Assembly: GCF_004210375.1 (NCBI RefSeq)
Contig: NC_134827.1
Location: forward strand, 98,116,672-98,180,671
Reading direction: 5' to 3'
DNA length: 64,000 nt
DNA from: Tachypleus tridentatus
Taxonomy: Eukaryota > Arthropoda > Merostomata > Xiphosura > Limulidae
In this document: in pieces, positions 54,201 to 58,100 of the stretch
How the letters are laid out: each line of letters begins with the position of its first letter
Position numbering within the stretch: position 1 is the stretch's first letter
Position numbers and translations under genes: made by a program
Notes under the pieces: generated by a model
The model's database searches: none
What the model saw: only the letters and a program-made list of their open reading frames with translations
What the model was told of the DNA's origin: nothing

Positions 54201-55154
54201 AAATATCCAGACAAAATGCATCATGTGAGTCAAATTAGAAGTTCAGTATTTCTTAGAAATTTAAAAACTTAAAATTTATATACTATTAATGTATGGGTTA
54301 TTAGCTAAGATTTTATGCTGTGCTAATTGGTATTATATAAACAAAAAATAGTTTAATTAAATTATGAATGTAAGACACTAAAATTTTGTGTCATGCATAG
54401 TAAAGGATATTTGAGGAAAGAAGGTTATAGTGAGAAAAACCCCATAGAGAAACAATTTAAAAATATATATATATCAAAATTTGGGATCTCTCCCTTACCT
54501 TCTCTTGTTTGTTGCTGTAATTCTTTGGCCACTTCTATAACCTGTGAGTGAAATTTTCTCAATAACTCTTAATATATAATAACTTAAAGCAAGTTAGTAC
54601 AAAAAGTTTAAATGTATTACACTAATTTATCTAAACCAAGATATATTGTCCAAAATATAAATACATGCATATTTGTTGTTAGAATACAAACAGAAATTAC
54701 ATTTATAAATTTACTGAACCTTGTTTGAGTAAAAATTCCATCGACATACTTTTGCTAATCTTAGTTTCAAATAGTGCACCACCAAAACATAATGTTTTAT
54801 TAACATATTAGTATCCCTGCTAATCTTCAATATTTTGAGATGGATAAAAATACTTTCTAATAAAATACATAATAAATAGTAAAGTTATTCTTCAATTAAT
54901 TATATAAGTTTTAGTGTATCTTGAAACATTCTAAGTTTATCTTAAACTATTTTCATGTTTCACAATAACTACTTGGTACTATTGTTATTAGAATGCAAAT
55001 GCAAACTGTTTCAATATTATTAACACTCCTACAAAAAGTGGGGCCTAATAGGCCCCAGAGCAACTTGAAAGGTTATTAATATTAGGCTAATAATTTTGTA
55101 TTTAAATGAAATTGCCATTTAAATCCTTTAATGAATGGATTAACAAGATTCCCA

Positions 55155-55189
<35 letters not shown>

Positions 55190-58100
55190 GGGGAACGGGC
55201 TTGGAGAAATCAGAACTAGAAACGTCTTTTCGTAGGAGTGTTAATCTCTGAATAGAATGCAAATATGAACTGATTCAGATCTGTTATATTAAACTCTTAT
55301 CACAATGCAAATGTTAGCTAATATAAATTTTACATAAACATGCTGACTGCTTGAACAACCATGGAAAAAAAAAGCCCAAAAAACTCACCAAAGTTACAAA
55401 TGTTGAAAGCTTAATTCGTTTAAATATTTCTCCTCTTTTGTACTTCACGTCTGCAAATGAAATAAAGTAATAAACGTATACTGTAAATCAGTATCTTACA
55501 GAGCAGTAAACAGCTAAATAGTGCTTTTCAGCAGAAATGCACAAAAAATGCATTTGAAGTAAAGAAATATTGACATTTTTCAAGTTCAATCAAATTCCTT
55601 CTTCACCTGTATAATATTCAATGCAAATTAAAGTAAGTTTAAAACTTTCACAAAATTACAGCTCACTTTAAGGTCATGATACTTCAAAATTCCTCATAAT
55701 GAGCTTATAATTTCATGTTAATTAAATCTTAAAAATATGTTATTCATCCCTTTTTTAATGTGGCATAATATATATATATATATACAAGAAACTCTGAATC
55801 AACATAATTATATTGTACATTGTTTATTTGGGATTAATAAAAGTGTGGTAAAGTGTTTGCAAATATTTCTCCACAATTTACAATGTCTGTTTTTAATAAA
55901 TGAAATTATTGATTGGAGCAGTAAGTGAGAAGACTTCAAATTTAAATTATGTTATTTACCTTTTTCTTTCTATAGGATGTGGAGAAACTGAGAATTGATG
56001 TAAATATATCTTTTTAAAATTTAGAAAACACACCTTATATAATATTAATATTTAATTATTCATTAACTATGTTTTAATGTCCAATTTGTTCATATACACT
56101 GGTGATAAAGTAATTAAATTTCAGATGCAACTCTAAATAACTGTGATGTGCAGTTTAACTTATCTATGCCAGATGAATAAAATGAACTAAAGTATGACAT
56201 ATAGCCACAAGCTTCAGAATATTTATATGATAAGTCCTCTCAGTTGTAAGCCAAGGTCTTAAAGCTTCCTGTTTATTGTGTCCCCTAGCACTGAAAGGAC
56301 ATGTCCATGAAAATGTATAAATCTGGATTATGAGGAAGAAGCTGAACACCCATTGACATTTGAGCCATGTCCAACCACCAGTGCAAATAATCAACAAACA
56401 AATAAGGAAGAGAAAATGAACCTTCAAAGTATCTTGCACAATATTCCACTGGTCATGTAGAGCCCATTGAAGAAATGCATATGTGTATGACCTGAGGGGA
56501 TAAGAGCTGCCATGGATGATCACATCCCCAAAAACGACAGAACCTTGCAAGTTGAAATAAAAGGATCAATAAAAGTATGGAGAACTGAAAGCTTCATAGA
56601 ATGAAATTGAAGAGGAGAAGGTTGGGCTCAAATGAGATGGATGTTAACAAACATATCCAAATGGACACAAGATATTGTGTAGTCATAAGAAAGGACTTCT
56701 TCAATTTGATTAAGCAGTCCACATGTGCAACCTCCAGAAGCAGCTGATAAGTGTACTATGCAGACTTTTGTTTGGAACTAGCAAACAGTAGTCAGTTGTT
56801 CGTGTACTGAGGTAAGAGCAACCCTTCAGCCTGCAAGTGATGGCTGAATGCTTTGACCACTTGCCACAAAATGTACAGGGCTAAAGCAAGCCAAAGGGCA
56901 GTGTGCAAAATTAATAAACCACTTCACAATAAAAAATAAATGAAACATAGCATAAGGAATGATAAGTTGTTCTCCACAAATAAAGACAAATCTACCACAG
57001 GCTACTAGTATTTGGTTTTCTTGGGAATGACAAATAGCCTGGAATAAAAGCTTAAAAAAAAGATGATGAATAGGTTAAATGGTTTGTACTGCCTCAGACA
57101 AACATTGACTAGGTGTAGGATCTGGAGGCAATGGGAAGGAAATGGGTATTAAAGATAACGGAAGGAGAAAAAGAATTTTTGGATTGAATAACCCATGGAA
57201 GTGTGGCAAAGATTGCCAAAGGGAACAAATTTGGACAAGCAAGCTCCCACTGGACTGGAACCAACTGGGTAGTTGCTAGTATCCAAGGTGACATTACCAC
57301 CTATGTTGAGTAAACCAATAAGATGAGGAACTCCTAGAGAAAGGAACAAGTAAAAGCTAAGAAGAGCTAGAAACTGAAACACATGTAATCAAAGAGAAAA
57401 TGATAGAGTGTTGATGCACTGAATTCATGTGTGATTCCAAAGTCTCAGGCACATCACCAAAACATACTGCAGATAAGATATCCCAACATTAGAGAAACCA
57501 CTTGTATAAAGCAAAAGTCAAAGACAGCAAACACAGAGGTAATTATGAAGAGGGTGTCCCATGAAAACCTCTCAATGTTACTGTGGATCACTTCAGAAAG
57601 GAGATGGATTGTATATAAATATTGTAGCAGGGAAGTAATGGTATTCAGATGTTGACATTAATCTTCAACAGCCACCTAATCTGAAGAATACAGCCACACG
57701 CCAGACTCAACGCACACAAGTTAAGACCACAGACGCATCAATCACAACAGACGTCAATGTCACATTCAGTAAGAAGACATAATTCGTCCCAAACAGAAAC
57801 AGAATGACTCATCAATACGGATAGAATTGACCACTCAGTTTTACATCCACGAATGGCCTATCTATATCCTCCTGGTGCTTTTGTTGTTGTGTTAGTTTAT
57901 TTGTTGTTTTTTTCCCTGAAAGCTTTACTAACCATGATTTCCTTTTCAGCTACTTCCGGGCACCATCAGGGTAAATTATTCGGATCCCTGATCGTGAAAG
58001 TGTCTTTTCTTGGGGTACTCCCATTTCCTCCCCATAGTAAATTCTGAGGCTTTTGGATTTACAGATCTCTATTCTCTTGTGTTGTTTTGGGTGGGGGGGG

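Follow-up and report, generated by a model that had tools for sequence, protein, structure and literature searches.

How does an 83-bp piece of 28S rRNA come to sit inside a short inverted-repeat element of a horseshoe crab, and what has moved it? The element occupies 55020..55244 of the window, by which we mean the whole 64,000-nucleotide stretch that was analysed, and is read on the + strand, which is also the 28S sense strand (TTAACACTCCTAC...GTAGGAGTGTTAA). It measures 225 bp with both TTAAs and 217 bp between the outer TTAAs, and is 98.2% identical over 225 bp to another family copy (L005). The left TTAA target-site copy (55020..55023) was assigned by sequence reading and from the flanks of 42 copies, the right one (55241..55244) likewise by sequence reading and from copy L055, whose unoccupied paralogous site has one TTAA, and immediately inside them stand the inverted ends CACTCCTAC and GTAGGAGTG. 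The left arm (55020..55119, + strand), common to the MITE and a full-length piggyBac element by 96-98% identity over the first 100 bp, contains a subterminal palindrome, GGGGCCTAATAGGCCCC (55040..55056), which is present near both ends of the full-length element too. A fold-back, ATTTAAATG / CATTTAAAT (55100..55124), lies at the breakpoint where the MITE departs from the full-length sequence. It is followed on the + strand by the 83-bp 28S piece (55131..55213; alignment 97.6%, E 3.9e-36), by the first 11 bases of a non-28S tail (55214..55224; GACTAGAAACG in the family, AACTAGAAACG in the window copy) and by the right end (55225..55244), whose last 18 bp are the right end of the full-length element.

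Rfam gave no matches within the window at the gathering threshold, so the 28S identification depends on sequence alignment. The 28S reference was assembled from dispersed fragments of the same genome (L063, L069 and L070), not from an intact rDNA unit; a consensus built from 28 sampled copies agrees with it at all but 1 of 83 positions, and longer dispersed fragments that cover the same stretch match Rfam LSU_rRNA_eukarya. The piece spans what we take to be the R1 site, downstream of the presumed R2 site. The element at 55020-55244 with its 83 bp of 28S sequence is confirmed: coordinates, ends, palindrome and 83-bp match were all found as the initial annotation had described them.

That annotation had also suspected an rRNA-bearing repeat family, and a search of the 2.17-Gb genome bore this out: each 28S junction is present about 2,000 times, and ends and 28S borders are shared. 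Allowing up to three mismatches, there are 2,024 occurrences of the left junction (1,046 + 978) and 1,961 of the right one (1,011 + 950), and the exact 19-base end is found 1,926 times forward and 1,945 times in reverse; reversed-pattern controls gave 0 in each case. The best 40 of 700 candidates in a whole-genome search with the element plus 10 flank bases match at 97-100%, and the best 40 of 202 candidates for the 28S piece plus three bases on each side all align across the full 89 bases. A chance match to 28S is ruled out by the roughly 2,000 genomic copies per junction and the empty controls, and a single-copy element by the same junction counts. By hand count, the first 100 listed places of the 19-base end include 34 two-ended elements; the spacing is that of the 225-bp element (204-206 between end patterns) in 28 of these and different in six.

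Sampled copies have a fixed length (223-226 bp). The annotation had allowed that the element might prove single copy, or that its ends might recur without the 28S piece; it is multicopy, and the 28 sampled copies, of 223-225 bp, fit one consensus with the same 28S borders, at 0-7 substitutions each and a mean divergence of 1.4%, a value that may truly be higher because these copies were located via the exact end. A script's motif flag missed the 28S in one 225-bp copy, which aligns like the others. Judged by this mean divergence from the consensus, the spread of the MITE family is recent. A later, separate insertion of 28S into some copies was rejected, all 28 sharing the 28S borders. With TTAA at both ends, short non-coding sequence and many near-identical copies of fixed length, the element has the features by which a MITE is recognised.

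The flanks of 42 copies of 215-235 bp are AT-rich and hold no strongly conserved base beyond TTAA. Seven of the first 8 copies have a TTA ahead of the left TTAA, but this is a sampling effect: it occurs in 7 of 42 overall, and those eight were the top-ranking ones for a query that extended into 10 bases of window flank. Joined flanks gave one usable unoccupied site in 70: the paralogous site of copy L055 has a single TTAA (142 aligned positions, 89%), and an additional four bases directly adjoining the TTAA differ, so that the site is nearly, not perfectly, clean. Movement at TTAA, which the annotation had expected to be visible at empty sites in relatives, is thus supported within this genome by one site, with its four-base difference.

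A profile search with PF13843 (best 116 of 1,651 candidate places) led to a full-length partner. The 10-base MITE end TTAACACTCC is present in 11 of the 20 PF13843 loci that were cut out (L022-L032), and nine of the 20 carry both MITE ends, 2,186-2,249 bp apart. The first 100 bp of the MITE are 97-99% identical to the nine full-length left ends, and its last 18 bp equal their right ends; between these stretches there is no match, and none of the nine has the 28S piece. Transposase frames are uninterrupted in the three loci that were translated (L024, 533 aa; L026, 536 aa; L030, 529 aa, with a C-terminus different from that of the other two). The partner transposase matches PF13843 with E 4.4e-68, and its best relative of solved structure is PDB 6x67 (E 3.6e-71), which we take to be the piggyBac of Trichoplusia ni; its aspartates align with 6x67 at what are presumably the catalytic positions. 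The terminal inverted repeats of the MITE are therefore common to nine full-length elements encoding a piggyBac (PF13843) transposase. PF13843 copies L013-L021, of which L013 lies in a 651-codon open frame, are without the MITE-family ends, and several piggyBac lineages thus coexist in the genome.

The source of the 28S piece is indicated by 28S fragments dispersed outside the MITE. A query from farther upstream in 28S was matched 44 times in the best 40 of 539 candidates, and a 33-base pattern whose last bases are AAATCAG occurs 1,480 times at no more than one mismatch, MITE copies included. For a sample, 40 fragments were fetched of at least 100 exact matches to a pattern ending at reference position 308. 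Among 50 fragment loci (L063-L112), several of them near-duplicates, the 28S alignment is on the examined strand in 47, and L080 and L111 are MITE copies. The 3' ends fall at reference 302-321 in 41 of 45 non-MITE fragments and the 5' ends are scattered; because the pattern forces ends at 308 or beyond, the informative part is the sharp drop thereafter. Some of the dispersed fragments (L063-L065, L070 and L073-L112, except the MITEs) enter a tail of ~50 bases.

The right 28S junction of the MITE, AAATCAG followed by non-28S GACTAGAAACG, is identical in 15 non-MITE loci: AGAAATCAGGACTAGAAACGTG occurs exactly 16 times, 15 of them non-MITE and one in a MITE (L141). In the non-MITE loci the tail GACTAGAAACG continues to ...CACCGAGTCAGTAAAGAAACGA, and a pattern for this tail end gave 12 matches with at most one mismatch (two pairs being near-duplicates), eight joined to 28S and four without it; Rfam applied to 11 fragment loci found LSU rRNA and no family for the tail. 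As the MITE holds the tail's first 11 bases, its 28S piece is best understood as a 28S-plus-tail fragment that has been truncated on both sides. The recurrence of the MITE right junction in non-MITE 28S fragments makes a truncated dispersed fragment the likelier source, and the piece was probably not captured straight from an rRNA gene.

Other 28S fragments have different surroundings. Locus L069 holds rearranged tandem 28S pieces at 1339-2131, including repeats of ~48 bp around the R2 site, and several fragments (L090-L093, L107, L135, L139 and L142) lie in or beside what we take to be a tRNA-derived SINE. Six of the 40 fetched fragments have 28S that begins exactly at the presumed R2 site, behind nearly identical upstream sequence. 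Loci L077, L096, L105, L108, L110 and L112 show R2 3' ends, then 28S, terminating in the same 28S stretch. At L158 (G000:C7:10034900-10037500), a frame matching R2 proteins (9nl3, E 9.4e-59) has 28S on both sides. R2 junctions with duplicated 28S sequence are reported for Limulus (PMC3774820).

Taken together, the 225-bp element is probably a non-autonomous piggyBac MITE, mobilised by its partner, with a 28S filler that came from a truncated dispersed fragment and is now a passenger. It is assigned to piggyBac because nine full-length elements share its ends and first 100 bp and three translated frames are uninterrupted, and it was most likely moved in trans by the partner transposase. The full-length family would supply a transposase that recognises the ends common to the MITE, which would be excised and pasted into TTAA with duplication of the TTAA. 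An ancestor with these ends would have broken at a fold-back-prone point ~100 bp in, the break would have received a truncated dispersed 28S fragment (28S, then GACTAGAAACG) as filler, and that single configuration would have multiplied to ~2,000 copies, taking the 28S along as passenger. What the sequences show are the copies, the ends and arm in common, the unbroken partner frames, the common tail and one nearly clean unoccupied site; trans mobilisation, filler-type acquisition and passenger status are what we infer. Several observations count against this explanation. The MITE ends start CAC, and piggyBac ends usually begin CCC or CCY; the MITE retains only ~18-19 bp of the partner right end, and laboratory piggyBac needs more right-end sequence than this. 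No target duplication surrounds the 28S piece within the 225-bp element, which leaves filler acquisition an indirect reading, and the unoccupied-site comparison has its four-base difference right at the TTAA.

The same ends without 28S bound elements of 144 bp (L051), 64 bp (L113), 76 bp (L114), 162 bp (L115) and 319 bp (L117). One relative of 393 bp (L116) folds back on arms of ~127 bp, and its apex carries a different 28S piece (reference 229-316) between duplicates of a 20-bp word, which stand at positions 103 and 271. In L068 the left arm is followed by a longer 28S piece (reference 105-308), which starts at or within ~3 bases of the same apex point, and then by GGAC; its right end was not found within the fetched stretch. 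L068 may share one 28S acquisition event with the 225-bp element, because its junction begins GGAC like the MITE tail. 28S thus entered the MITE group at least twice, perhaps three times.

A possible but unlikely extension is that 28S fragments recurrently patch breaks in hairpin-forming DNA of this genome. On that reading they closed the apex of a fold-back MITE on at least two and perhaps three occasions, hairpins abound in the 3' flanks of other fragments, and a single patched MITE rose ~2,000-fold in number; a repair scar would then have turned into a mobile rRNA-bearing family. Perfect hairpins of at least 9 bp within 120-base flanks were found downstream in 15 of 45 fragments, upstream in 6 of 45 and in 18 of 288 control windows, a downstream excess (Fisher p 1.7e-6; for example L086, L088, L097 and L104) from a test that was devised after the flanks had been seen and from 45 loci that include L068 and some related ones; the hairpin-rich 3' flanks are a lead only. 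Inverted repeats between the two flanks of a fragment do not exceed the swapped control, except in one 12-base case. Shared flank words of at least 8 bases surround 8 of 50 fragments, against ~2.5 expected from swapped flanks, and target duplications around the dispersed fragments are weak at best.

In direct capture, an element that had jumped into rDNA, or had been repaired from it, would have taken over 83 bp of 28S in the manner of Pokey; we regard this as improbable. The single difference in 83 positions between consensus and 28S would fit it, the 28S piece contains a TTAA, and Pokey (PMC3849761) shows that piggyBac elements can occupy 28S and carry rDNA pieces; however, the right junction is a non-28S tail common to 15 non-MITE loci, and the TTAA within the 28S piece holds no insertion. 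In the rDNA sequence covered, which consisted of fragments and not of intact units, neither a MITE nor a partner copy turned up. The initial annotation had spoken of host-gene capture by a short piggyBac-like element: the short TTAA element with piggyBac-type ends, its 28S and its high copy number stand, supported by a full-length family with the same ends, and the capture was probably not direct, given the right junction common to non-MITE fragments.

That the 28S aids spread, for example by hiding the element from small-RNA silencing or by replacing missing right-end sequence, would be surprising. The 225-bp configuration does outnumber its relatives (28 of the 34 hand-counted two-ended elements among the first 100 listed) and little of the partner's right end is retained, but the 28S is not better conserved than its surroundings (2.0% divergence among the 28 copies, against 1.0% on the left and 1.3% on the right) and a founder effect accounts for the dominance. 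It is scarcely credible that the family is a 28S-derived SINE merely resembling an inverted-repeat element: SINE28 is known (PMC8010984), and other dispersed 28S fragments exist in the genome, but sampled copies have a fixed length with both inverted ends and TTAA only, and MITE ends and arm are common to a DNA transposon, in keeping with the annotation's idea of a route other than a SINE. A SINE as mover was also set aside on anatomy, as variable 5' truncation, a 3' tail and a lack of inverted ends are not what the copies display.

A conserved rRNA segment that includes the R1-site region has thus been carried by a DNA transposon to ~2,000 places, and in this horseshoe crab such mobile 28S copies can mislead estimates of rDNA copy number and the mapping of R elements and small RNAs. 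The animal now offers a MITE that spread recently to high copy number beside a partner that appears intact, and the filler of this MITE is traceable to a second dispersed fragment family.

Among known systems, the Trichoplusia ni piggyBac (6x67) resembles the partner in a transposase homologous over most of its length, with an aligning cysteine-rich C-terminus; the horseshoe crab family differs in its CAC ends, end sequences and 2.2-kb elements. SINEs spread by reverse transcription and have no inverted ends. The MITE is like SINE28 (PMC8010984) in being dispersed 28S-derived sequence, and unlike it in having inverted ends and moving at TTAA. The R2 and R2/R1 SIDEs of Drosophila are likewise small and non-autonomous with rDNA-related parts; they sit in the 28S gene and use R2 or R1 machinery (PMC3414825), whereas the MITE has TTAA and piggyBac ends. 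Coagulogen exons, a mark of horseshoe crabs, are present in the genome: one equals PDB 1aoc, the coagulogen of Tachypleus tridentatus, at 48 of 48 aligned residues, and a second does so at 48 of 51, its 3 differences falling among the first residues, which may be intron; the animal is thus probably T. tridentatus. In the main text of the T. tridentatus genome paper (PMC6390705), DNA transposons are the largest repeat class (23.06%), and MITE, piggyBac and SINE each have 0 occurrences. Among titles and abstract starts (most subscription papers lying outside coverage), Pokey was the only case recognised of a MITE or piggyBac with rRNA pieces. Pokey of Daphnia (PMC3849761) is the nearest precedent: like the MITE, Pokey and mPok belong to the piggyBac superfamily, stand at TTAA sites, include MITE derivatives and enclose sequence derived from rDNA, in their case intergenic-spacer repeats, with an ITS2 piece also marked. 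Pokey inserts in 28S genes and carries spacer (PMC3849761), whereas the horseshoe crab MITE carries 28S itself; it is the MITE that holds this piece, and none of the nine full-length copies examined does, unlike in Pokey; and the MITE has reached ~2,000 copies against 90-110 for mPok.
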